Positions 4,562 to 27,896 of a stretch of DNA of 64,000 nucleotides are shown here, piece by piece (the stretch's first letter is position 1; each line of letters opens with the position of its first letter). Both the position numbers and the translations under genes were made by a program. Where the stretch lies: the NCBI GenBank assembly GCA_947624485.1, contig CANQKM010000002.1, positions 62,001 through 126,000 of the forward strand, read 5' to 3'. This stretch comes from an uncultured Clostridia bacterium. Lineage in GTDB: Bacteria > Bacillota > Clostridia > UBA1381. The notes beneath the pieces are model-generated. The model was given only the letters and a program-made list of their open reading frames with translations, was not told the origin of the DNA and made no database searches.

Positions 4562-4636
4562 TTATTTTATCATAGAAAAATTGGATTTAAAGAAATTCTT
4601 CACACAGTCACGTTTGTTGTCTACTTGACGAGGAAT
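4562..4636 (+). pseudogene. C-terminal remnant of a GNAT acetyltransferase
   Basis: The frame starting at 4562 reads LFYHRKIGFKEILHTVTFVV, matching the usual end of a GNAT domain (F-Y-x-x-x-G-F). Nothing upstream in the frame resembles the rest of the domain. It is a decayed fragment downstream of the promoter and hairpin. Confidence 0.4.
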
Positions 4637-4675
4637 AGTCTATGGTTGCCACTTTTATATTATCTTTGGTTTTGA

Positions 4676-6472
4676 TTACTTTTCCTCACAGTACAGCTGT
4701 CCGCAGTTCATATTATCATTTTTATCGGAGCAAAATACGTAAGCCCTTATTCCATTATCCACTAATTTCTGCTTTAGTTCGTCTAATTTTTCTTTATCCG
4801 TACTTTTCAAATTATTTAGCCTGGTAGCGCTTGTTTCGTTTAATTTTGACACGCGGACAGTTATTTTTTCCTTTACATGCTTAAGTTTGTCTGCCAGGCG
4901 ATTCACATCCTCGACTGAATCGTTTTTCCCTCTTATAACGATATAGTTGATACGGAAAAATTTTTCCTCGCTTGTTGATACGAATTTCAGGAATTCGTCC
5001 AAACCGGGCAACTCCGAAAAGTTATATATGGGAATCAGCTTCTTGACAAGGTCGGGATTATAGCTTACATATGTGTATTGAATATAGCGTATCGGTACAT
5101 ATCGGTTCAGAGATATAGTCTGTTCAAGCAAATCCCCGTCCCAGAAATTGGATGAAAATGTTATATTCAAATTACGGTAGCTCTCTAACATTTTCACAAA
5201 GCGAAATACGCTGTGTCTGTTAAAACGCAAATCACCCATTCCGGTTATTGAAAGCAACACGTAGGCGTGTTTATGCAACTCCTTTTTGTCATATATGTAA
5301 TCGAATATGGTCTTCATTTGATTTATTTCCAGAGGATAGAATATATTGATATTCGAGGATGCACAATAGGTGCACTTCGAAGGGCAGCCGAAGCTTACAG
5401 GCATTTCAATAACCGATTTCTTAAATTCATCCTGAGCGTAATGCTCAAAATACCCCACTTCATACACACCGAACGAATCCTCAAAAACATATTTTGTTGT
5501 TATCTCGCGGTCCCAATCGCTGCCCGAATATTTATTTTCTGTAGAAAAAACCTTTTTTAATCGCATATCTGTCACTTCTCCGCTTATTGTTTGCATTTCC
5601 ATATCAATTGGGTCCAGCGTTTCGATAAAATCCGCCATATCATCATCTATCAGCTTCGCATATCGAGTTCCGGGCTGCAGCTCTATAAGCAAACTATCCT
5701 GCTGCCCGCTCGAGTTATGCGTATACGGGGACATAATACACTGCGTATCCGTTCTGATATAAAGATATGTAACAGATATCAAATCTACGATATATATTTT
5801 TAAATTATTCCAATATTTACTATCGACCTTCTCATGCAGCAGCACATAGAAATCAAACAATGTTCTCTCCAATTTGCTCATCGCTTTGGCGTGTGTTCTC
5901 TGCTGTCTTAATTCATATTCCCGTTTAACCCTATCAAGCATGGTTCGCGTTGCTTCCGGCATCAAATTGTCCATTGAGAGGACAATATTAACCATTTTGT
6001 TGTCGTTAAGCATACTTGCTATTTTTTTTACGAATATATCTCTGTATTCCGGCTTAAACCACTTGCTCAAGGAATGACCCACCAAATCAAGCCTGTTTCC
6101 GGAGTTGTTTATGATTTCATTCCAAAATTTTTGTTCACTATCAAAATATGATTTCGGACGTATGCTTATGACTCCCTGCTTGTATAATTTATTGCTTTCC
6201 TGCAAGCCGGCTTCTATGTCTTTAAGCCCTGCCGCCAGCTCGTTGTGGTCATCGTTTGTATATGCGCGCTGCAGTATTGCAAAAATACCGGAGGCAATGA
6301 CCGAGCATAAAATCCCGAGCATGACATCCTTCCATAAAGCCGCGCTATCCGGAGAATTCGATCTTGAATCAACTATAAATACGCATACGATCAGCAAAAC
6401 AGATACAATCGCGAACACAAGCCAAATATTGGAATGTCTGCCCCATACTTTATTTTTCTTTTTCTTTTCCAT
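4676..6472 (-). CDS. Membrane-anchored RlmN-like radical SAM protein
   Basis: 598 residues. Two N-terminal membrane helices (about residues 16-34 and 50-68) anchor it. A middle domain (about 100-250; DLVGHSLSKWF, NIVLSMD) resembles inactive PLD-like sensor folds. The C-terminal half is a radical SAM domain: CPSKCTYC (CX3CX2C, Cys363/367/370) binds the 4Fe-4S cluster, GMGDLRFN matches the GMGEPL motif of RlmN/Cfr, IVIRGKNDS matches its later strand, and NCGQL (Cys590) matches the methyl-carrying cysteine of RlmN. The second RlmN cysteine, seven residues before the cluster, is absent (Glu). The start was moved to the internal ATG with GAGGGGG upstream, giving a 23-base overlap with the HD gene. 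Probably a nucleic-acid-modifying effector of a defence pair; unproven. Confidence 0.75.
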   Translation of the reverse strand: MEKKKKNKVWGRHSNIWLVFAIVSVLLIVCVFIVDSRSNSPDSAALWKDVMLGILCSVIASGIFAILQRAYTNDDHNELAAGLKDIEAGLQESNKLYKQGVISIRPKSYFDSEQKFWNEIINNSGNRLDLVGHSLSKWFKPEYRDIFVKKIASMLNDNKMVNIVLSMDNLMPEATRTMLDRVKREYELRQQRTHAKAMSKLERTLFDFYVLLHEKVDSKYWNNLKIYIVDLISVTYLYIRTDTQCIMSPYTHNSSGQQDSLLIELQPGTRYAKLIDDDMADFIETLDPIDMEMQTISGEVTDMRLKKVFSTENKYSGSDWDREITTKYVFEDSFGVYEVGYFEHYAQDEFKKSVIEMPVSFGCPSKCTYCASSNINIFYPLEINQMKTIFDYIYDKKELHKHAYVLLSITGMGDLRFNRHSVFRFVKMLESYRNLNITFSSNFWDGDLLEQTISLNRYVPIRYIQYTYVSYNPDLVKKLIPIYNFSELPGLDEFLKFVSTSEEKFFRINYIVIRGKNDSVEDVNRLADKLKHVKEKITVRVSKLNETSATRLNNLKSTDKEKLDELKQKLVDNGIRAYVFCSDKNDNMNCGQLYCEEK

Positions 6473-8765
6473 TTGATTTATCCCCCTCGGGTGGGATTTT
6501 CCCATAAATCTCCCGGTATTTTTTCAGCATATTTCTTTTGCTTATATTTTCATTTTCTGCCCTTTCTTCTTTGGTTTTGTCCGGAGAAAAATGCGCCTGG
6601 AAGTATACTTCTCCACGTTGAATAAATTGAGTAGCCACAAAAACAAAGATTTTTTCTATAAGCTTATAATGCCGCCTTTGCTTTTTTAAACTCAATTTAT
6701 CGTCCGAATTGTTTGCGTCGGATGGGCCTGAAATCTCGTTAGGAGTAAGCTGACGCAAAAAAATATAGAAGCTTTTTTCCGCATATATCGAATAGTAGTC
6801 CCTCGCAGGAATAATGGTTGTTAACGACTTAATGTAATACTCGTCCGCCCTATATTTTACGTCCGCATCATTGCCTGACATTTCATTCGTTTTCTGTGCT
6901 ACATCAAGCTCGCGGACAGTCTCCGGCTTGCAGAAACGCGCCGCCCGCTGTATCACAAAAAAGTCTCCGTCCTTAAGGGGTTGAATAAGATCGGATTCGG
7001 ATTCATCGTTGGCTATCTGCTGAGTGATATATCTCACATGCTTCGCAATCTGAGAGCGGAATTCATCACCCGCAAATTCTTTGGTGTCTCCTTGTCCTAT
7101 CCACTGACAAAGCTTCTCGCGAATGTTATCATCCGGGAAGTTAATGTCAATAAAGCTGTTAAACTCCGAATATGTCTTCCACCAAGGCTTAAGATATTTT
7201 CTTTCAAGACAGTCACCTATCAAATCATATACATGATTTACATTTTTCGCGACCTTTTCGAACTCCGGAATTTTATCGTGAGAACCGTCGCTGCACACAT
7301 TATACACGGCGGAACGTATATCCTCCATGGATATGTTTCCTTTACTCAGAGAATTAATTATCTTATAGATTGCCTCTAGCAAAGGCTGCTCAAACGCGTC
7401 TTTTTTATCCTCGGTCGGTTTATCCTTGATCGATTCATCCTCGGTCGATTTTGCCTCGCTCATTTTGTTGTAAATATCGTTTAGCAAGAAAATCCAATCG
7501 CTGTCGGAACAATGCCGGTCGATAATTGCTTCCGGCGAAAACAGGCGGCTTTTCGATACCATTCCCAGCCGGGCGGTTCCGAATTTCTCTATTTCCTGAA
7601 ATATTTTATTTTCCTCCGCTTTAATATTATCAAGCTTCTTGCAAAGCTTCGCGATTAAATTTTTAAAGTCGCGCATATTGTGATTCAGCCTTCTGAATAT
7701 GTACGTATTTATGAAGTCGGAATATACAACGGCATGATGATTGTATACGTACATATATAAATCGTCTCTCGCTTCGATCATATTTTGCAGCGCGGATACC
7801 GCTCGGTTTGTAAACACTATCGAGTATTCTCCGTTTAAATGCATATTCCTGAACAAGCGCGAGGTGTCGATTCCCGGTGTTCCTATCTGTGTCATATATG
7901 AATCGCGCATAATATAATCAAGCTTGTCCATATCAAATATGGGCGAATTTATAAGCCGTACCATAACGTTCTTTTTTTGATTTTCCTTTAATGCTTTTTC
8001 GCCTTTTTCTTCGCCATCTGAAAAAAGATTTACAGACGTATCATATTCATATCCGAGAATACAGCGAATGACTAATTCTATGTCCACATATAAATTGTCT
8101 TCTAAATTTTCTTCGGGAAATAAATCGGCAAATTGTGTCAATTTATCATAGAATGTGTCCATAATAATTATACAGGATAGCTTTTCGTGAACCGCGCCGG
8201 GGATTTTTTTGCCATCGTCTATACGTTTTTTAAAAGCATCTTCCAAATTTTTTAAACGGTCTAATATTTTAGCCTTGTTTGAATCCTCGTCTGGGGCCTT
8301 GTTTGAGGTTCTAGCTGAAATTATAGCAAGCAGTTTGTTATCTACTTCTTTTTCGTCGTATTGCGTCTCGCCGAGATGAGAAAACGGGCAATGCCCGACG
8401 TCGTGCAGCAGTGCCGCTTCTGACGCGCTGAGTTCCATCCATGGCGTGAATATTTCCCCATCGTTACGGTTAGATGAAGTCGTCAACAAACCGGAGTCGT
8501 CATTAAGCAGACGCTCATTATGCTTAAGACTTTTTATTGCGCGCCTTGTCAATTCCATTACGCCTAAGGAATGTTCAAACCGGGTATGACGCGCTCCGGG
8601 ATATACCGCCTGACATGTCAGCTGCCGAATGTCTTTCAGACGCTGAAACTCTCTTGTGTCAATGATGTCAAGTTCAAATTTTGTCAGAGATATATATCCG
8701 TGAACATGATCTCGTATGGATTTGGCTATTTCCGTGTAGTATTTTTCTTCAGTTGGATTGTACAT
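6450..8765 (-). CDS. SAMHD1/dGTPase-like HD phosphohydrolase
   Basis: 771-residue HD-domain protein of the SAMHD1/dNTP triphosphohydrolase family, which converts dNTPs to nucleosides plus triphosphate. Visible landmarks are HGYISLTKFELDIIDTREFQ near the start, RHTRFEHSLG (His60, His65), the ALLHDVGHCPFSHLGE core (His121-Asp122) and FDMDKLDYIMRDSY (Asp280), all in the order found in SAMHD1. The C-terminal 400 residues are helical and unassigned. It is first in a two-gene operon with the radical SAM gene, behind its own promoter, with AAGGGGG as SD. dNTP depletion by such enzymes is an established antiphage strategy; the role here is inferred from that and from the island context. Confidence 0.85.
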   Translation of the reverse strand: MYNPTEEKYYTEIAKSIRDHVHGYISLTKFELDIIDTREFQRLKDIRQLTCQAVYPGARHTRFEHSLGVMELTRRAIKSLKHNERLLNDDSGLLTTSSNRNDGEIFTPWMELSASEAALLHDVGHCPFSHLGETQYDEKEVDNKLLAIISARTSNKAPDEDSNKAKILDRLKNLEDAFKKRIDDGKKIPGAVHEKLSCIIIMDTFYDKLTQFADLFPEENLEDNLYVDIELVIRCILGYEYDTSVNLFSDGEEKGEKALKENQKKNVMVRLINSPIFDMDKLDYIMRDSYMTQIGTPGIDTSRLFRNMHLNGEYSIVFTNRAVSALQNMIEARDDLYMYVYNHHAVVYSDFINTYIFRRLNHNMRDFKNLIAKLCKKLDNIKAEENKIFQEIEKFGTARLGMVSKSRLFSPEAIIDRHCSDSDWIFLLNDIYNKMSEAKSTEDESIKDKPTEDKKDAFEQPLLEAIYKIINSLSKGNISMEDIRSAVYNVCSDGSHDKIPEFEKVAKNVNHVYDLIGDCLERKYLKPWWKTYSEFNSFIDINFPDDNIREKLCQWIGQGDTKEFAGDEFRSQIAKHVRYITQQIANDESESDLIQPLKDGDFFVIQRAARFCKPETVRELDVAQKTNEMSGNDADVKYRADEYYIKSLTTIIPARDYYSIYAEKSFYIFLRQLTPNEISGPSDANNSDDKLSLKKQRRHYKLIEKIFVFVATQFIQRGEVYFQAHFSPDKTKEERAENENISKRNMLKKYREIYGKIPPEGDKSNGKEKEK

Positions 8766-8843
8766 ATAAGCAGCCCCCTTTTCTTAAAGATTCCTCATAT
8801 TTATTTTTTGAGACTTGCAGCCGCTATAATTATATTTAAATAT

Positions 8844-8872
8844 ATTTTAACATAATAATATATTTTTTTCAA
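8844..8872 (-). promoter_or_regulatory. Promoter of the HD/radical SAM operon
   Basis: On the minus strand TTGAAA, 17-bp spacer, TAAAAT, about 80 bases upstream of the HD start codon. Confidence 0.6.
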
Positions 8873-9388
8873 TACATAAATTCATTTAAGCAAATTTATT
8901 TGATTTTTCATTTTTATTCCCCAGCCAAAGTAAACGTTGGCAAATAACAATAATTGCATATATTTGGGCTTCTTTTTGAATATATCAGCTATGCTTTGCT
9001 TACGTTTTGACAGCAAAATAACAAGGCATTCGGCTATGATATAAAATATAAATTTTTTTGCTCCACAAATTCGTTTGGGTTATTCAATTATCTTTATTAC
9101 CAATTATCAGCTTATTACTTTTTGACTGATAAATTCTATAGCCCGGCGATAATTGTAAGTATCATATTAGGACTCAATATCGAAGAAAATAATCTTTACA
9201 ATGTGAATTGGAATTATAAAACGAAGAGCTTTTTGAAATTTTCAGAAAATTTTAAAATATCTTTTTTCAAATTATGGATTTGTGTGTTAAAATAGTTATA
9301 CATAATGCAATAATAGCTCCAGTAATTTTAAAATGCCTGAAATAAGTCTACAATAAATATTTAAATCGGTTCAAAACTACTCAACCGC
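8873..9388. other. A+T-rich intergenic region with no visible gene
   Basis: No reading frame with a credible SD or family resemblance is visible on either strand. It separates the minus-strand HD operon from the attachment region. Confidence 0.4.
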
Positions 9389-9417
9389 TTGACATTTTAG
9401 CAAATAAACAGTATAAT
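9389..9417 (+). promoter_or_regulatory. Perfect consensus sigma-A promoter pointing across the attachment site
   Basis: TTGACA, 17-bp spacer, TATAAT. The next rightward gene is more than 1.2 kb away, past a bidirectional terminator. The predicted transcript runs through the arm-type repeats and the GAGTGGGAAT core. A 13-bp bulged inverted repeat (9454-9466 with 9481-9494) overlaps the arm repeats in its early part. Confidence 0.7.
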
Positions 9418-9469
9418 GATACCATAAACAAGGAGCACCTTCCACAGCTAAAATGCTCTGTTATCACCT

Positions 9470-9491
9470 TGATAACAAAATGATAACAAGA
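9470..9491 (+). repeat. Tandem 11-bp integrase arm-type site (left neighbour element)
   Basis: TGATAACAAAA followed directly by TGATAACAAGA. The same pattern (TGRYARCAAWA twice in tandem) recurs at 9659 and 18907. It ends 98 bases before the GAGTGGGAAT core at 9589, exactly as the 18907 site ends 98 bases before the core at 19026. Confidence 0.65.
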
Positions 9492-9588
9492 GCATAAAAC
9501 GGCGGAATAATATGAATTATTCAAATTTTAAAAAGACCTGTAAATAATACAAAAAATAATATCAAAACAAATTTGTTTAATAAGCATG

Positions 9589-11873: not shown

Positions 11874-11909
11874 AGAAATCTAAATTAGTTGAACTGGGGT
11901 GATAATTCT

Positions 11910-13043
11910 ATGAAAAGAACTATAAGCGTTATGATGGGAAAAGGTTCGTTGACACACAACAACAGAGATTTTGTTGCCGAAAATGTAGACAAGGAACGTA
12001 TTCAAAACGACATCACATATTGCAATGAAAACATCAAAACAGTTTATCACAAATTATTCGATGAAGCGCTTGAAAAATATAACGCTAAACAAACACGCAA
12101 GGACAGAATGATTGGCGACTACTACGAAAAAATCCGAACAGGTAAGCAGGAAAAGCCGTTTTGCGAGATTATACTTCAAATAGGTGATAAAGACAACATG
12201 GGAGCGGAAACCGAAAATGGACAGCTTGCGAAGAAAATTCTTGACGAGTATATGAAAGGATTTCAAGACCGCAATCCAAACCTTTATGTATTTTCAGCTC
12301 ACCTGCACATGGACGAAGCCACACCGCATCTGCACATAGATTTCGTACCGTTTACCACAGATAGCAAGCGCGGACTTGAAACGCGTGTGTCTCTCAAAAA
12401 GGCGCTCGAAAGTCAAAGCTTTGTGGGAACGGGCAGGAGCGATACGGAATGGAACAGGTGGGTTGAGTCCGAAAAAGAAGCCTTATCTCAAATTATGCTT
12501 GTCCACGACATAGAGTGGGAGCAAAAAGGCACACACGAAAAGCACAAATCCGTCAGCGAGTTTAAACGGGATAAGCTGGTTGAGGAAGTTGAAACTCTTG
12601 AAGACAAAAAACAAGATTGTATAGACGATATTTCCAAATATAAAAAAGCGGAGGACTTTGCACTTGCCACCGCTAAAAAGTTGGAAAATGAAGCGTTAAA
12701 ATTGCAGGAACCAACGCCGTTGATGTCGGCTAAAACATATAAGACAAAATACGCGGAGCCATTTATAAAGAAGCTGATTAAAATCATCAAAGACCTCGCC
12801 CGAAGGTGTTTTAGGGCTGAAAAAGAAGCAAAACAGTCTGTTACCGAGATTGCAAGGCTGACCGATGAGAACAGTAAACTAAAAGCACGGGTATGGGATT
12901 TGAATATGGAGAACAGCCGCCTAAAGGTTCAAGTTCGTGATTTTTATAGGTTGAAGGAACATTTTGGGATTGATAATGTAAGGGAGATTTTGAAAACGGT
13001 GGGTAAGTTAAGACAAAAGAAAAAGACTGATTTATCGAGATAA
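11910..13043 (+). CDS. MobV (Pre/Mob) family relaxase
   Basis: 377-residue plasmid recombination/mobilisation relaxase. The metal-binding 3-His motif HLHMDEATPHLHIDFVPF (about residues 131-148) is intact, preceded by the early catalytic-region motif and followed by the conserved GTGRSDTEWNRW stretch. The C-terminal 150 residues form a coiled coil (KAEDFALATAKKLENEALKL; later LTDENSKLKARVWDLNMENS). It nicks and joins one strand at oriT and remains 5'-linked to it. ATG at 11910 with GGGGTGAT upstream is preferred to the frame's first ATG. It has the full length of the family and is probably functional, unlike the integrase. Confidence 0.9.
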   Translation: MKRTISVMMGKGSLTHNNRDFVAENVDKERIQNDITYCNENIKTVYHKLFDEALEKYNAKQTRKDRMIGDYYEKIRTGKQEKPFCEIILQIGDKDNMGAETENGQLAKKILDEYMKGFQDRNPNLYVFSAHLHMDEATPHLHIDFVPFTTDSKRGLETRVSLKKALESQSFVGTGRSDTEWNRWVESEKEALSQIMLVHDIEWEQKGTHEKHKSVSEFKRDKLVEEVETLEDKKQDCIDDISKYKKAEDFALATAKKLENEALKLQEPTPLMSAKTYKTKYAEPFIKKLIKIIKDLARRCFRAEKEAKQSVTEIARLTDENSKLKARVWDLNMENSRLKVQVRDFYRLKEHFGIDNVREILKTVGKLRQKKKTDLSR

Positions 13044-13434: not shown

Positions 13435-14445
13435 TTGAGTTATGATATATGGAATAGACGATATACTGGTAGTAAGTATAAATTAGCAGAATGGATCGTC
13501 AGTCTTATAAATAAGAATTGCGTCGGTAATTCGTTTTGTGATATATTTGCCGGTACAGGCATAATAGCATATTCTATGATGCACAGCGTAGATAGCGTAT
13601 GTATAAATGATTTTCTATTCTCAAATGATGTAATATATAGGGCTTTTTTTGAAGACGCTTCATATGATGCTGCAAAGCTTGAAAGCATAAAAGAATACTA
13701 TCTCAAGAAAGACGCTGAAAACTTATCTGATAACTATTGCTCTAAATGGTATGGCGGTAAATTTTTTTCCCATAATGATGCAAAAATTATCGGGTATATA
13801 AGAGATAACATTGACTCATTAAGACACGAAATTAATGAAAAAGAAAGGAACATTTTGATATCATCACTTTTGTATTCGGCGGATAAATCAGCTAACACAG
13901 TTGGTCATTATGACGCATATATAAAAGGGAAAGAAATTAAAAATAGATTTACATTTGATTTAATAAAACCGTATAATACAAAAGGAAAAAGAATTATAAT
14001 AAGTCGAAATGATGCGAATGAATACGCAAAAAAGCTGAAGTGCGATATAGTATATATTGATCCTCCTTATAATTCACGGCAATACAGTAGATTTTATCAT
14101 GTCTTGGAGAATATAACTTCTTGGAATAAACCGAATTTATATGGGGAGGCATTAAAGCCGAAACCTGAAAATATGAGTGAATATTGCCGCAGCAATGCCC
14201 CAGTGGCATTCAAAAATCTCATAGATACTTTGGATTGTCAGTATATTGTTGTTTCATACAATAACACATACAAATCCAAAAGCTCCTCTTCAAGGAATAA
14301 AATAACTCTTGAAGAATTAAAAAATATATTAGAAAACAAGGGTACAGTGATGGTATTCAGTAAACCTCATCAGTATTTTAATGCAGGGAAAACTGATTTC
14401 ACTGACCATAAAGAATATGTATTTATTGTAAAAGTTGGTGATTAA
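13435..14445 (+). CDS. Adenine-specific DNA methyltransferase (strand 1)
   Basis: 336-residue D12-class N6-adenine methyltransferase. FCDIFAGTGIIAYSM (about residues 34-48) is the SAM-binding motif I, and DIVYIDPPYNSRQYSRFYHV (about residue 205) is the catalytic DPPY motif, in the NSRQYS form seen in FokI-type methylases. It starts at a TTG with TAGGAG 8 bases upstream; no ATG is available nearby. It is followed after one base by a second, different adenine methylase. Two methylases are needed when the recognition site is asymmetric, each protecting one strand, which fits the type IIS nuclease downstream. Confidence 0.85.
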   Translation: MSYDIWNRRYTGSKYKLAEWIVSLINKNCVGNSFCDIFAGTGIIAYSMMHSVDSVCINDFLFSNDVIYRAFFEDASYDAAKLESIKEYYLKKDAENLSDNYCSKWYGGKFFSHNDAKIIGYIRDNIDSLRHEINEKERNILISSLLYSADKSANTVGHYDAYIKGKEIKNRFTFDLIKPYNTKGKRIIISRNDANEYAKKLKCDIVYIDPPYNSRQYSRFYHVLENITSWNKPNLYGEALKPKPENMSEYCRSNAPVAFKNLIDTLDCQYIVVSYNNTYKSKSSSSRNKITLEELKNILENKGTVMVFSKPHQYFNAGKTDFTDHKEYVFIVKVGD

Positions 14446-14446
14446 A

Positions 14447-15361
14447 ATGATTGCAAAAGTAAAAGAAACGCTTAATCGTTCCCCATTTTTTTATGTTGGT
14501 GATAAATTTAAACTTTTGCCGCAGCTTAAAGATAATTTTCCAGATAATATAAATAGATTTATAGAACCATTCTGTGGAGGGGGAAGTGTGTTTCTTAATG
14601 TTGATGCAAATGAGTATTTGTTAAATGATATTGACACATATATGATACAACTTCACAAATTCCTACTCTCATACAGCGACAATCAGCAAGATTTTTGGGA
14701 TGAATTAGAAAAAAACATCGAAAAATATAATTTGTCTGCAACATTTATGGGTAGAGATGTTCCTAAAGAAACAAGGAAGGAATTTGTTAAAACATACTTT
14801 GCAAAGTATAATAAAGAATCATATATAAAATTAAGAACCGATTTTAATCAAAACAAAGAAAATATGATGCTTCTGTATATGCTACTCATATATGGTTTCA
14901 ATAGGATGTTAAGATTTAACGCCAATGGTGATTTTAATTTACCTGTTGGTAATGTGGATTTCAACAAAAATGTTGTCAATGCGCTTAATGCTTATTTTGA
15001 CTATGTAAAGGACAGAGATATTCAATTCTTTAATATGGATTATCAAGATTTTATCAATAAAATAGAACCTACAAAGAATGATTTTATCTATTTAGATCCA
15101 CCATATCTTATCACTTTTAGTGAGTATAACAAGTTGTGGGATGAGGACAGCGAAATGCGCTTGATACACTTCCTTGATGAAATAGATGAGCGTGGGATCC
15201 GCTTTGCCGTTTCAAACATTCTTTGGCACAGAACAAGATATAACGGAACATTTAATGAGTGGGCGCAACAGTATAATATTGTTCGAATACAGAGTAACTA
15301 TATAAGCTATCATGATAATACTGAAAAAGATTCTTATGAAGTTTTAGTGAAAAACTATTAA
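14447..15361 (+). CDS. Dam-like adenine DNA methyltransferase (strand 2)
   Basis: 304 residues, Dam/DpnM branch of the D12 class. FYVGDKFKLLPQLKDNFPDN leads into FIEPFCGGGSVFLNV (motif I, about residues 38-52), and DFIYLDPPYLITFSEYNKLW is the catalytic DPPY region (about residue 208). Dam-like enzymes methylate A in GATC-containing sites, consistent with a GGATC target for the adjacent AlwI-like nuclease. The ATG one base after the previous stop, with GGTGAT as SD, was chosen over upstream TTG/GTG codons. Confidence 0.88.
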   Translation: MIAKVKETLNRSPFFYVGDKFKLLPQLKDNFPDNINRFIEPFCGGGSVFLNVDANEYLLNDIDTYMIQLHKFLLSYSDNQQDFWDELEKNIEKYNLSATFMGRDVPKETRKEFVKTYFAKYNKESYIKLRTDFNQNKENMMLLYMLLIYGFNRMLRFNANGDFNLPVGNVDFNKNVVNALNAYFDYVKDRDIQFFNMDYQDFINKIEPTKNDFIYLDPPYLITFSEYNKLWDEDSEMRLIHFLDEIDERGIRFAVSNILWHRTRYNGTFNEWAQQYNIVRIQSNYISYHDNTEKDSYEVLVKNY

Positions 15362-15373
15362 GGTGGTGTTAGT

Positions 15374-16942
15374 ATGGCAGGAACACGGAATGCAGAATAT
15401 AAGCCGTTGTCATTTTCAACAACGATGAGAAATCCGGAAAGAATTGTTGATTTCTTGAATTGTATATTGCCTTATGAGGGACAACTTTTAAGTAATAGTG
15501 TAATTAACCAAGTGGCAATCAATCTTATTAGAAGGAAATTATATTGCCCTGTTTATATTAACCGGACACAAAGACTAAAGGATATATTAGGTAGTGATGA
15601 ATATTTTGATATATCTAATGTCCAAGAGATAATGGAAAACAGCCCACAAGATCATAAAGAAGCCGGATTTGAAAAAGGCTGGCCGTCAAGATTTGATACT
15701 TGGTATAAACTACCCATGGAGTTTGGCTTCATATATTATGAAATGAACAAACCCATTGAGATTTCAACAACAGGACATATGCTGATTGATGCATTAAATG
15801 AAACACCTAAAAATGATGAAAAAATAAGGAATGTGTTTCTTAATGCCTTGATGAAGTATCAAACAAATAATCCATTTCGCAAAAATGCTAACGCAAACGC
15901 TCCGCTTTCGTTATTATTGAAAGTGATAAGATTGTTAAAAGGTGATAATGATGAAAATAATGCCGGAATATTCAGAAAAGAACTTTCGCTTTTAATATGT
16001 TGGCCGGATAATGATGCTGTATCGTTATATAATAAAATTAAAGAAATCCGGGGAATGCACGGATATAATTACGGTGATGAAATAATTTATGAAACGTGTT
16101 TGCAAATTCTGAATGCCACAGATGACCAAAGGAATAGATTTAAAATGAATCAAATAACCGGTGAAGCGGTTGATGAATTTATACGCAAAATGCGTATTAC
16201 GGGTATAGTATCTTTGCGCGGGAACGGTAGGTTTTTGGACTTCAATTCTTTTGAATTGGATAAAATTAATTACATAATAGAAAATTATTCTGCTTATGAC
16301 ACATATACGGAAAAATATAATTATTTCAAGTATATGGGAGAGATTGACAGTAATATACTGACAGTTAACGAAGTGGAAAAGGCTGCAATTGATGATGTTA
16401 AGATTAAAACATTAAATCAATGGGCAAATGATTATAGCAAAGAGGATATTATAAAAGAATTACATATAGTTTGCAAAAAAACAGAGAGTAAAAATGATAT
16501 ACTTAAAATTATTGACAAGCCGACAAGATTGGAGTTCTTGACAAGCATAGCTTTAAAGCAAAACTTTGAAGATTTAGAGGTGTATCCAAATTATCATGTT
16601 GATGATGAGGGTCTGCCAACATTTACTGCTTCTGGAGGGATGGCTGACATTGAATGTTTTGATACGAATTGCAACTCTCTTGTTGAAGTTACACTTATGC
16701 GTTCAAAAAATCAAGCCACAAATGAAGTTCCAGCAATAACGCGGCATTTGCAAGAGGCTATTAGCAAATATCCAGATAAAATTGTATTTACTATGCTGGT
16801 AGCACCTTCAATTCATGCTGATACAGTATATATGACTGAATTTTCAAAAAGTCATTATCATGTAGATATTTTGCCGCTAACTATCATTGAGTTTATAGAC
16901 CAAATTGTTTCTAAAGAAAGTATAGGGGAAATGCTGGAATGA
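15374..16942 (+). CDS. AlwI-family type IIS restriction endonuclease
   Basis: 522 residues. The N-terminus, KPLSFSTTMRNPERIVDFLN, is the signature opening of the AlwI family of type IIS nucleases (AlwI itself recognises GGATC and cuts outside the site). The likely PD-(D/E)xK-type cleavage domain is C-terminal: GGMADIECFD followed by LVEVTLMRSKNQ at about residues 415-445. Middle residues carry helical DNA-recognition segments. AGGTGGTG lies just before the ATG, 12 bases after the second methylase. Together with the controller and two methylases it forms a complete system. Specificity is inferred from family only. Confidence 0.85.
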   Translation: MAGTRNAEYKPLSFSTTMRNPERIVDFLNCILPYEGQLLSNSVINQVAINLIRRKLYCPVYINRTQRLKDILGSDEYFDISNVQEIMENSPQDHKEAGFEKGWPSRFDTWYKLPMEFGFIYYEMNKPIEISTTGHMLIDALNETPKNDEKIRNVFLNALMKYQTNNPFRKNANANAPLSLLLKVIRLLKGDNDENNAGIFRKELSLLICWPDNDAVSLYNKIKEIRGMHGYNYGDEIIYETCLQILNATDDQRNRFKMNQITGEAVDEFIRKMRITGIVSLRGNGRFLDFNSFELDKINYIIENYSAYDTYTEKYNYFKYMGEIDSNILTVNEVEKAAIDDVKIKTLNQWANDYSKEDIIKELHIVCKKTESKNDILKIIDKPTRLEFLTSIALKQNFEDLEVYPNYHVDDEGLPTFTASGGMADIECFDTNCNSLVEVTLMRSKNQATNEVPAITRHLQEAISKYPDKIVFTMLVAPSIHADTVYMTEFSKSHYHVDILPLTIIEFIDQIVSKESIGEMLE

Positions 16943-19411: not shown

Positions 19412-20728
19412 TTATTTTTCAGACAACTCATCCAATTTTTTCTGCATTTTTTCTTTTAAGACATTTTTTTGCTCTTCGGTAAGCGGTGCTTTAACGGCTG
19501 AAACAGTGTTATCCTTTGCTGTGGATAAATCCGTTATTTCTTTTTCAACCTTAGAGCATGCTTTTATAAAATCATTCTGCTCTACATAGTCTCTTGATTC
19601 CATTGCGGCGTTTACACATGCCGAAACAACAGCTTTGCGTATTTCTCTGCCGCAGAATTTGTAATTATCCGCCAGCGTTTGCGTATCTACATCTGCCGCC
19701 AACGGGATGCGGATATTATCACCCTTGATATGTACGTCCCATATTTTTTTCCGGCTTTTTGCATCGGGCTCGGTAAATTGTATGCTTATTAAACGTGTAA
19801 GAAATGCCTGATCGTAATTTATAACAAGGTTAGTCGCGAATATGACAATGCCCTTAAAACGCTCAAGACTAATTAAAAGCTGGCTTCTCATAGAATTGAT
19901 TGCCTGCGCGGAACCGTCTGAAACGTTTGTTAATCGCTTGGACAGCAGAGAATCGGACTCATCGATAAAAAGAACTGCATCTTCACGTTCTGCCGCGCGG
20001 AAAATTGCCTTGACCATTTTTGGACCTTCGCCATGGAATTTACTTTCTATATCAGCGTATGTGGCGCAAAGTATTTTTTTGCCCAGCATTTTTGCGACAG
20101 CCTCCGCGGCCATAGATTTTCCGGTGCCCGGGGGACCGTAAAAACTGAGCGCCGACGTCGCCTGAGGAACAATAGCTCTTAATCCCCAATCATCAAACAC
20201 CTTCCGCTCAACCTTAATTATACCTACAACTTCCTCTATTTGCTTCTTTACACTTTCCGGGAGTATTACCTGCTCAAATGAATATCGCGGCTCTTCCGCG
20301 TGGTAATTATAGGATAATCGTTCGTAATCATATTCGCTGCTTGCCGCCCGGGTATTTTCGGATTTGGGTTCATTATTACCTGCGCCTTTGCCGTCACCGG
20401 CGATATTGCCGGATTTCATCGGATTAAAAGTCGGATTAAAAGCCGCATAATTCATTTTAACGGTTATATTTTCAGCCGGGATACCAACGAAGGTATTCTT
20501 TATAATGTCGATTATGCAGTTCCGTATATCAAGTTCATAGCCCTCATACTTAGGCGTTCCCATCACATACACCTCACAGGCGCCAATGTTCGGTTTTACA
20601 GTTATTTCAACGTCTGTACTGCCGTAATATTTTTTTAATGCAGACGTCAGAGCTGATTTTACTGCACGCTGCTGTTCCGATCCTGCAAATTTTTGCATTG
20701 TCTCTGAAATACAAATATATACTTTCAT
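19412..20728 (-). CDS. AAA+ ATPase, last gene of the TerB-HNH-AAA operon
   Basis: 438 residues. Residues 1-100 form an uncharacterised alpha/beta domain (MKVYICISETMQKFAGSEQQ start), followed by a Gly/Asn-rich linker (about 100-140). The AAA+ module of the FtsH/spastin/katanin class begins with FEQVILPES, then Walker A GPPGTGKS (198-205), Walker B LFIDE (253-257), sensor-1 IFATN and a C-terminal helical lid with FCGREIRKAV. A helical tail rich in Lys/Glu ends the protein. No protease domain is fused, so it is a remodelling or unfolding ATPase, perhaps acting on the membrane proteins encoded beside it. Its gene is adjacent (no gap) to the small membrane protein upstream. Confidence 0.85.
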   Translation of the reverse strand: MKVYICISETMQKFAGSEQQRAVKSALTSALKKYYGSTDVEITVKPNIGACEVYVMGTPKYEGYELDIRNCIIDIIKNTFVGIPAENITVKMNYAAFNPTFNPMKSGNIAGDGKGAGNNEPKSENTRAASSEYDYERLSYNYHAEEPRYSFEQVILPESVKKQIEEVVGIIKVERKVFDDWGLRAIVPQATSALSFYGPPGTGKSMAAEAVAKMLGKKILCATYADIESKFHGEGPKMVKAIFRAAEREDAVLFIDESDSLLSKRLTNVSDGSAQAINSMRSQLLISLERFKGIVIFATNLVINYDQAFLTRLISIQFTEPDAKSRKKIWDVHIKGDNIRIPLAADVDTQTLADNYKFCGREIRKAVVSACVNAAMESRDYVEQNDFIKACSKVEKEITDLSTAKDNTVSAVKAPLTEEQKNVLKEKMQKKLDELSEK

Positions 20729-25812: not shown

Positions 25813-27144
25813 ATGCTCTTAAAATATATAGTAAGTAATTTCAAGTCTATAGGACATTCTGTAGAGTTTAGCATGATACCTACAGAGAACAATACTGACA
25901 AAAGATTTTTAACAAAACTGGAAACAAAATACGGAGATATTGATGTTTTAAGACGCGGTGCTTTTTTTGGACCGAATGCATCCGGTAAATCTACTTTTGT
26001 GGAATCCATACAGTTCGCAAAAGAATACATTGTTGATGGACAAAAAAGTGGTAAAAGCACGCGAGTTCCGCAATTTAAGGGAAATCTTGATGGTGTAGAG
26101 GAAATATCACTATTTCAATTTGTGTTTTACATGGACAAAAATGTATTTGAATATGGGTTTACTTTGACACCGAAAAGAGTATCAGAAGAGTGGTTAATGG
26201 TTCGTGCCAAAGAAGGGTTTGTTCCAATGTTTACTCGTGCGACAGATGAAAATGGTGTAACTGACATTGATATTGAAACAAGATTTGGCAGGAAGAACTC
26301 AAAAGATAGACAGCTGTCGGATATTTTAAAATCTAGCATGAAAGAAAACCAGAAAAATCAGCTTTTCTTATATAAGCTCAAAGAAAATGGAATAAAAAAA
26401 GCTGAAAAAATTGTTGGGTGGTTTGAAAATATTCAGGCTATTTTTCCAAATACTAAAATACAATGGTTGCCAATTAGAGTTAAAGAGGATGAGGATTTTA
26501 GAAAGTTTTTATCGGAGTCTTTAAGCAAACTTGATACGGGTGTATCTAAAATCAGTGCTTACGGTGCTGAAATTAACTTTCAAGAATTTGCAGAAAAAAT
26601 GAATTTACCCAAGGAGCTTGTTGCAGATATTGAAAACAAAGAAAGTGGGTTAATAAGCTTAAACGGAAGATACTTTATATTTTTTGAAAATAGAAATAGA
26701 ACTTCCTTAATACAGGTTAAGTTTGAGCATGCATTAAATAACAAAATTGTTAGTTTTAATATAGATGATGAATCTGACGGTACACAAAGATTGTTGGACA
26801 TATTACCTATTCTTTTTCAAATGGATAAAAAAAATAATGCAATATATTTTATTGATGAAATTGATCGTAGCTTGCATACAAAATTATCAAAATATATATT
26901 AAAAACTTTTGCCGAGAAATCCAAAGATCTCCTTAATCAAATTATTTTCACAGCACATGATGTGAACCTAATTAATCTCAGAGATTTCACAAAAGAAGAA
27001 ATCTGGTTTATTGAAAAAAATAATATGGGAGAAACATCGTTAAAGCCATTCTCTGATTTTAAAATAAACGATAATCAAGATATAATTAAAGATTATCTAA
27101 ATGGAAGATTTGGCGCGATTCCGGTAATTGGAGGCGATGCATAA
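25813..27144 (+). CDS. RloA/AbiLi-like AAA ATPase
   Basis: 443-residue ATPase of the OLD/RloA/AbiLi type. It opens LLKYIVSNFKSIGHSVEFSM, has Walker A GPNASGKST (about residues 54-62) and a Q-loop-like QFVFYMDKN. The ABC-like signature DESDGTQRLLDILPIL (about 318-333), Walker B AIYFIDEIDRSLH and FTAHD (H-switch) follow in order. It overlaps the next gene by one base (TAATG). In AbiL, PARIS and related systems such an ATPase senses a phage product and controls a TOPRIM-like partner. SD AGGAGG lies before the ATG. Confidence 0.85.
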   Translation: MLLKYIVSNFKSIGHSVEFSMIPTENNTDKRFLTKLETKYGDIDVLRRGAFFGPNASGKSTFVESIQFAKEYIVDGQKSGKSTRVPQFKGNLDGVEEISLFQFVFYMDKNVFEYGFTLTPKRVSEEWLMVRAKEGFVPMFTRATDENGVTDIDIETRFGRKNSKDRQLSDILKSSMKENQKNQLFLYKLKENGIKKAEKIVGWFENIQAIFPNTKIQWLPIRVKEDEDFRKFLSESLSKLDTGVSKISAYGAEINFQEFAEKMNLPKELVADIENKESGLISLNGRYFIFFENRNRTSLIQVKFEHALNNKIVSFNIDDESDGTQRLLDILPILFQMDKKNNAIYFIDEIDRSLHTKLSKYILKTFAEKSKDLLNQIIFTAHDVNLINLRDFTKEEIWFIEKNNMGETSLKPFSDFKINDNQDIIKDYLNGRFGAIPVIGGDA

Positions 27145-27896
27145 TGCCAATTTTAATTAACAGACGAGAAACCCCATTAAAAAGAACGGTTAGACCAACT
27201 TCAAATAAAATTATTTTTATATCATGTGAGGGGCAGGTAACAGAAGAAGAATATTTCTTAATGATATCGGAAATGTTTGATGGCGTAAAAAGTAAAATTA
27301 GACTTATTTCTGTTATGGAGGAGGCTGTAAATACTCCACAGAATATGAGAACACAAGAACAGAAAAAAGAATTAAGCAAAAGTATGCCTTGGCAGCTTGT
27401 TAAAAAAATTGATATATTTAAAGAAAAAGAAGCAGCAATATATGATTTTGAACATCATCCCGAAGATGAATTTTGGATTATTGCTGATGTAGATAACCAC
27501 ACAAATGAAGACAACATTGAAAAATGGGATAAAATGTTGATTGATTGCAATGACAAAAAATATGGATATGCAATTAGTAATCCGTTTTTTGAAGTATGGC
27601 TGCTGTTACATCATCTTGAGCCTATTGCAGAAGACTATAAATATGCAGTAACAGATCAACATGAATACGAAAAGACATCTCACTTTAAAGACAGACTGAG
27701 GAAAGATGCTCATGCGGGATTAGTTGGTGGAAAAGGTATAAACAAGGAGTATTACGATTTATCAAAAATAAGGAAAGCAATCCATCAAGCCGAACAATTA
27801 CATAACAAATCAGAAGAATGGCCTCATAATTTGGGAAGCACTGTTTATTTGTTACTTAACAAGATTATTGATATAGCCGACAGTACTACAATTTAA
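27144..27896 (+). CDS. RloB/AbiLii-like TOPRIM protein
   Basis: 250 residues, RloB family. IIFISCEGQVTEEEYF near the N-terminus holds the conserved Glu of a TOPRIM fold; DEFWIIADVDNHTNEDN supplies the D-x-D motif; YAISNPFFEVWLLLHH is the highly conserved RloB signature (S-N-P-x-F-E-x-W). It is expected to be the nuclease or effector subunit working with the upstream ATPase. Gene order and one-base overlap match RloA-RloB/AbiL loci. It is the last recognisable accessory gene before the chromosomal half of the window. Confidence 0.88.
   Translation: MPILINRRETPLKRTVRPTSNKIIFISCEGQVTEEEYFLMISEMFDGVKSKIRLISVMEEAVNTPQNMRTQEQKKELSKSMPWQLVKKIDIFKEKEAAIYDFEHHPEDEFWIIADVDNHTNEDNIEKWDKMLIDCNDKKYGYAISNPFFEVWLLLHHLEPIAEDYKYAVTDQHEYEKTSHFKDRLRKDAHAGLVGGKGINKEYYDLSKIRKAIHQAEQLHNKSEEWPHNLGSTVYLLLNKIIDIADSTTI

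Follow-up and report, generated by a model that had tools for sequence, protein, structure and literature searches.

A SAMHD1-like HD protein gene paired with a gene for a predicted membrane-bound, RlmN-like radical SAM protein in a mobile defence island of an uncultured Clostridia bacterium

The window analysed here, a 64,000-nucleotide stretch of contig CANQKM010000002.1 from an uncultured Clostridia bacterium, contains two overlapping genes on its minus strand. The HD gene (6450..8765) encodes a protein of 771 aa with a core of the SAMHD1-type deoxynucleoside triphosphate (dNTP) triphosphohydrolases, and the gene downstream of it (gene 2; 4676..6472) encodes a protein of 598 aa, read from the ATG at 6472, in which two predicted membrane helices and a middle domain precede a radical S-adenosylmethionine (SAM) domain resembling those of RlmN and Cfr. 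With this start, the two genes overlap by 23 bases, as described in the original prediction for the locus, and a purine-rich, Shine-Dalgarno-like stretch precedes each of the two starts. The frames (771 and 598 codons) are not chance occurrences, since simulating the coding strand 1000 times with an order-2 Markov model gave no open frame longer than 233 codons.

The presence of SAMHD1/dGTPase landmarks in the HD protein was borne out. The Pfam HD family matched it above the cut-off (26.2 versus 22 bits), its core has the SAMHD1 catalytic-core fold, and ten residues (R62, H65, H121, D122, H125, H130, D280, Y284, R287 and D288) are invariant in an alignment of 22 HD sequences, comprising the window protein, its relative at locus L018 (see below) and 20 sequences chosen from 42 viral loci; H193 is kept in at least 90% of the same alignment. 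The invariant positions include the active-site residue His65 (8571..8573, minus strand, as for all protein features below), which corresponds to SAMHD1 His167, the His121-Asp122 HD motif (8400..8405), also conserved in all seven sequences of another alignment, and Asp280 (7926..7928), the expected metal ligand of the site. The assignment of a SAMHD1-type fold and active site is hence supported, and the protein would be expected to catalyze dNTP triphosphohydrolysis. Matches to more specific families were limited in extent. PADLOC returned only a partial dGTPase match (E 2.7e-8, residues 34-137) and a weak RT_UG33 match (E 0.0057), and the NCBIfam antiphage_dGTPase model scored 18.8 bits against a cut-off of 400, with no full-length family match. 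Models of anti-phage dGTPases cover about 100 residues or fewer of this protein. It also differs from SAMHD1/EF1143-type enzymes in a long helical stretch (approximately residues 360-600) that was modelled only at low confidence, in giving no Pfam match to the sterile alpha motif (SAM) domain, and in having an operon partner.

The two membrane helices proposed for gene 2 were recovered as hydrophobic segments at approximately residues 16-34 (6371..6427; mean hydropathy 3.31) and 49-67 (6272..6328; mean hydropathy 2.25). The first is kept in both relatives of gene 2 discussed below (L018 and L019), and the second scores 2.14 in L018 and a weaker 1.86 in L019. The N terminus ahead of the first helix is rich in Lys and Arg, and such a tail before two helices suggests an N-in topology with the remainder of the protein in the cytosol. 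For the middle domain (approximately residues 112-247; 5732..6139), the original assignment as phospholipase D (PLD)-like was not upheld at the sequence level: the HxKxxxxD (HKD) motif is absent from this domain in all three family members, neither a Pfam family nor, at significant scores, a PDB chain was matched by sequence, and no PLD family was detected in Pfam up to E 1. An AlphaFold model of gene 2, built from two sequences only, had a mean predicted local distance difference test (pLDDT) score of 42.2, too low for use. The invariant cysteines in the N-terminal half of the family are Cys30, in the first helix, and Cys245, in the middle domain, the latter being kept in all three relatives.

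The radical SAM domain, delimited in a three-sequence alignment (residues 301-598; 4679..5572), contains all the RlmN motifs that had been noted in it: CX3CX2C (363-370), GMGD (411-414) and CGQL (590-593). The three cysteines of the [4Fe-4S] motif (Cys363-Cys367-Cys370; 5363..5386) are kept in 3/3 relatives, and Cys590 of the CGQL motif (4694..4705) is the equivalent of the methyl-carrying Cys355 of RlmN and Cys338 of Cfr. In an alignment of ten radical SAM domains, encompassing the three gene 2 relatives and seven chromosomal controls classed as RlmN-like from their length and motifs, all ten sequences retain the cluster cysteines as well as the cysteine of CGQL. The domain has only four invariant cysteines within the gene 2 family, and two substitutions set the family apart. 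The GxGEP of the controls becomes GxGD in all three members, and the position of the adduct-resolving cysteine (Cys118 in RlmN, Cys105 in Cfr) is occupied by a glutamate (Glu356; 5405..5407) in 3/3 members and by cysteine in 7/7 controls.

Profile searches placed this domain closest to RlmN and Cfr. A profile built from the three sequences had five PDB matches at E <=0.01, each of them to Cfr or RlmN, and the NCBIfam models for RlmN (E 7e-9, 35.1 bits versus a cut-off of 290) and Cfr (E 1e-8, 34.6 bits versus 550) were both detected. The Pfam Radical_SAM model remained below its cut-off (21.1 versus 29.5 bits, E 4e-4). The NCBIfam models align only from their positions 81 (RlmN) and 107 (Cfr), and two membrane helices and the middle domain stand in place of the RlmN/Cfr N-terminal domain. 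These results support a relationship with RlmN at the sequence level, but simple RlmN-type RNA methylation is not supported for a protein that lacks both the adduct-resolving cysteine and an N-terminal domain of the RlmN type. The same features bear on whether gene 2 might be a Cfr-like rRNA modification gene of the antibiotic-resistance type carried on a mobile element. Its nearest families and its mobile setting would agree with such an origin, whereas the lost cysteine, the absent N-terminal domain, the membrane anchor and scores far below both cut-offs speak against it, and we consider this explanation very unlikely.

In RlmN and Cfr, the methyl group is borne by the CGQL cysteine, and cleavage of the protein-RNA adduct depends on proton uptake by the second cysteine; when this second cysteine is changed to Ala, or to Ser in Cfr, the protein-RNA adduct persists and can be purified (PMC13001441, PMC5130265). 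Engineered C118A RlmN and C105A Cfr form methylene-bridged adducts with RNA adenine. The replacement of the resolving cysteine and the retention of the CGQL cysteine in gene 2 suggest that the joining half of this chemistry was retained and the releasing half changed, so that the family would keep the ability to join protein to base with an altered release. This argument is weakened by Cys245, which could conceivably act in place of the lost resolving cysteine. The presumably cytosolic radical SAM domain, stemming from the RlmN/Cfr lineage, would install a methyl and then a methylene group on Cys590, and this methylene would be joined to an adenine in RNA or in a nucleotide. Release would have to differ from that of RlmN because Cys118 is replaced by Glu356; it could proceed via Glu356, or another residue, as proton acceptor, or be slow or absent. 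The more cautious interpretation is that an adenine in RNA or in a nucleotide is modified and that Glu356 accepts the proton. By analogy with the engineered mutants, gene 2 might instead be a natural dead-end RlmN whose Cys590 becomes welded, via a bridging methylene, to adenines in RNA or in nucleic acid entering the cell at the membrane. This is very unlikely; if true, the protein would be a one-shot radical trap that anchors nucleic acid of the phage, or RNA used in translation, to the membrane as the dNTPase deprives replication of its precursors.

A second copy of the gene pair, in the same order and with a 17-base overlap, was identified at locus L018 (CANQCK010000005.1) in an uncultured Clostridia metagenome-assembled genome (G850), whose isolate name, 'Lapin', suggests a rabbit source. 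The HD and gene 2 proteins are 85% and 90% identical to those of the window. DNA similarity between both loci spans 4623..9536 of the window and ends on both sides, save for a separate 69-base match at 75%, delimiting by blastn a shared unit of 4.9 kb with different flanks in L018. By marker protein identity, G850 is a distant relative of the window genome (66% for GyrB and 47% for a RelA-like protein, versus 90-91% for GyrB in two genomes and 88% for the RelA-like protein in one genome within the window genus). The similarity of the unit in such distant genomes indicates recent horizontal transfer of the 4.9-kb unit as one block, in either direction. The HD gene of L018 (7588-10011) also contains a repetitive Ala/Glu/Val/Gly insertion at approximately residues 210-260 that is absent in the window copy.

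Substitution rates between the two copies point to purifying selection on both genes. The NG86 method yielded dN 0.048 and dS 0.142 (ratio 0.34) for gene 2 and dN 0.080 and dS 0.240 (ratio 0.33) for the HD gene; the signal was weaker with YN00 (dN/dS of 0.54 and 0.49, respectively), and the first 75 residues of gene 2, which offer few sites, gave dN 0.066 versus dS 0.041. These values argue against the notion that the island harbors decayed, non-functional genes, as do the open frames of all three gene 2 relatives and the conservation of the glutamate in 3/3 members, one of them at 36% identity. The rarity of the family, the substitution of one catalytic cysteine and the insertion in the L018 HD protein could be taken as signs of decay, and we deem this explanation highly improbable given dN/dS values of 0.33-0.54 by two methods.

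The third member of the family, at locus L019 in genome G175, encodes the membrane module and the radical SAM domain in two adjacent genes, 24% and 36% identical to the respective halves of gene 2. Their adjacency as split genes indicates that the two modules belong together. Beside this split unit lies a 1075-codon open reading frame (L019 10281-13508) in which short repeats of the 'ELxDG' type form a long array. Beyond these members, the gene 2 family is very rare. Matches were found in 1/95 genomes of the window's order and 1/398 of a phylum sample (the window genome itself in both), in 1/3 genomes of G175's order (G175) and in 1/245 of G850's order (G850). Within the class, 9/391 genomes presented matches at E 1e-8: the window genome, G175 (E 2.3e-54) and seven with weaker matches (E 1.8e-13 to 9.2e-9), whose length and motifs are RlmN-like. 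The membrane module alone, used as query, recovered 2/391 class genomes (the window genome and G175), and a single-protein scan of genome contigs, which detects close relatives only, returned L018 alone. No gene 2 relatives were detected by tblastn in plasmids, phages or viral contigs, and searching the plasmids with the L019 radical SAM protein as well yielded no further relative.

The mobile, defence-rich setting of the gene pair was correctly anticipated. The first 28,000 positions of the window (1-28000) have a GC content of 37.2%, compared to 51.6% for 28001-64000, and this low-GC region is a mobile defence island. It contains MobA/MobL (1095-2609) and Mob_Pre (11889-13043) genes, a restriction-modification set of two DNA adenine methyltransferases and an AlwI-like endonuclease (13435-16942), an AAA ATPase with an IetA-like match (19412-20728) and an AbiLi/AbiLii pair (25813-27896), and PADLOC matched 6 of the 10 island proteins submitted. 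Taken together, the chemistry expected of the HD protein, its island setting and the transfer between genomes suggest a unit that defends by depleting dNTPs, and we tentatively interpret the HD gene and gene 2 as a horizontally moving two-gene unit that would constitute a joint dNTP-depleting anti-phage system. Once switched on, the HD dNTPase would empty the dNTP pool and phage DNA replication would stop. Gene 2 would be the membrane-bound partner, sensing infection or modifying an adenine-containing target, and it would control or complement the dNTPase as CloB partners CloA in the Clover system. The analysis establishes the sequence, the fold of the HD core, the motifs, the co-transfer, the purifying selection and the island setting; phage defence, catalytic activity, the RNA or nucleotide target of gene 2 and its regulation of the HD protein are all inferred here.

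Several observations weigh against this interpretation. The pairing was seen in only one other genome (L018), where no defence gene was recognised in the 13.7 kb of neighbourhood inspected by eye. The L019 unit has no HD gene beside it, and a search of the G175 genome (91% complete) with the HD protein found nothing at E 0.001. HD relatives are more widespread, being present in 12/391 class genomes (window genome included), 38 plasmid records, 11 phage records and at least 42 viral-contig loci. When 63 loci were searched with gene 2 profiles, matches were obtained in L018 and L019 only, and the other HD-bearing loci (61/61) lack a gene 2 relative. The loci covered encompass 7 regions from the 49 plasmid and phage records, 12 regions from 11 class genomes other than the window's own, and 42 viral loci that include several near-duplicates; some loci are short or lie at contig ends. 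In the places examined, HD relatives thus have other partners or none. G850 itself carries a second HD relative, and at L048 (5140-11113) an HD relative adjoins an HsdR gene identified by Pfam, followed by a gene resembling HsdS by eye. Furthermore, PADLOC contains no family matching gene 2 up to E 1 and matches the HD protein only partially.

The originally proposed joint system hence stands insofar as the pair occurs together in another genome following horizontal transfer, but not as an obligate association. The unpaired HD loci and the radical SAM unit without HD in G175 are what would be expected of two independent defence or accessory genes that are adjacent and travel together, with the HD protein working alone and the radical SAM unit separately. 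This is rather unlikely: in each of the two known copies the genes overlap, which makes translational coupling probable, and they moved as one block and show similar dN/dS ratios.

A different relationship between the two products is suggested by Clover (PMC12265719), which consists of the dGTPase CloA and the nucleotidyltransferase CloB, with CloB restraining CloA, and which is the closest precedent for an HD dGTPase controlled by a partner from its own operon. As in the window, an HD dNTPase is encoded with a partner in a mobile defence setting, although the partner in the window is a membrane radical SAM protein, and up to E 1 neither Pfam nor NCBIfam matched gene 2 to a nucleotidyltransferase. 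The HD protein could correspondingly be a toxic dNTPase and gene 2 an antitoxin-like restrainer, with radical SAM chemistry making or modifying an inhibitory nucleotide. Besides the Clover precedent, this would fit the observation that 20 of the 60 HD matches with enough upstream DNA, near-duplicates included, have a short same-strand gene ending between -46 and +27 nt from the HD start (at L047, L051, L056, L072, L074, L105 and others), a pattern compatible with an effector with exchangeable partners. These 20 genes (120-203 aa) form five multi-member clusters and one singleton, with no similarity detected between clusters, and none of the six proteins run whole against Pfam gave a match; they are possibly small partners of SAMHD1-like enzymes. 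We nonetheless regard restraint by gene 2 as unlikely, since gene 2 lies downstream, is membrane-bound and lacks a nucleotidyltransferase match, the toxicity of the HD protein is presumed, and 40/60 HD matches have no short upstream gene.

The unit interpreted here as a joint defence system also includes a noncoding stretch upstream of the HD gene (8766..9536; 26.8% GC) that travels with the gene pair, with blastn similarity to L018 of 88.8% over 8126-9158, which is partly coding, and of 86.6% over 9233-9536. The conservation of this block is no evidence of function, because its divergence of 11-13% is within what the synonymous divergence of the two genes would permit, and no Rfam match at gathering scores was detected in positions 1-30000 of the window. 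The proposal of a single promoter for both genes stands in part: the block contains a candidate promoter upstream of the HD gene (TTGAAA-17-TAAAAT, 8872-8844) that is kept in the L018 alignment, but the promoter scan was noisy, with 33 sites compared to 20.1 on average (sd 4.6) in shuffled sequences. A separate element at 9389-9456, composed of a perfect sigma-70 promoter (TTGACA-17-TATAAT) and a leader, is directed away from the gene pair. This element is 83% identical to a leader elsewhere in the same genome (L061 1075-1143; G000:C4:259674-259742), located just upstream of a gene for a RecQ-like helicase, which is followed by a DprA gene; the helicase also matches a phosphoribosyltransferase family weakly, below the cut-off. 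The two instances are candidates for a shared leader before candidate defence genes.

Prokaryotic viperins are radical SAM enzymes in defence, sharing with gene 2 the superfamily and a suspected defence role. The nearest relatives of gene 2 by sequence are RlmN and Cfr, and up to E 1 it matched no family in the PADLOC library, which presumably holds viperin models. As the original prediction had stated, no named system with this exact pairing was found, and the combination of a SAMHD1-like HD protein with an RlmN-like radical SAM protein was not found described in the literature searched, which lay mostly outside subscription papers. Systems composed of a dNTPase and a partner are a known kind; the gene 2 partner family was not found described. 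If the proposed interpretation is correct, the pair would couple dNTP depletion, as carried out by SAMHD1, to a radical SAM enzyme of RlmN descent that is anchored in the membrane. The natural Cys-to-Glu change in this enzyme affects the position at which loss of the cysteine leaves RlmN and Cfr stuck to their RNA, and raises the question of whether the family uses trap chemistry or another base. The pair would also add to the view that the SAMHD1-like HD enzyme is a mobile effector whose partners can be exchanged.

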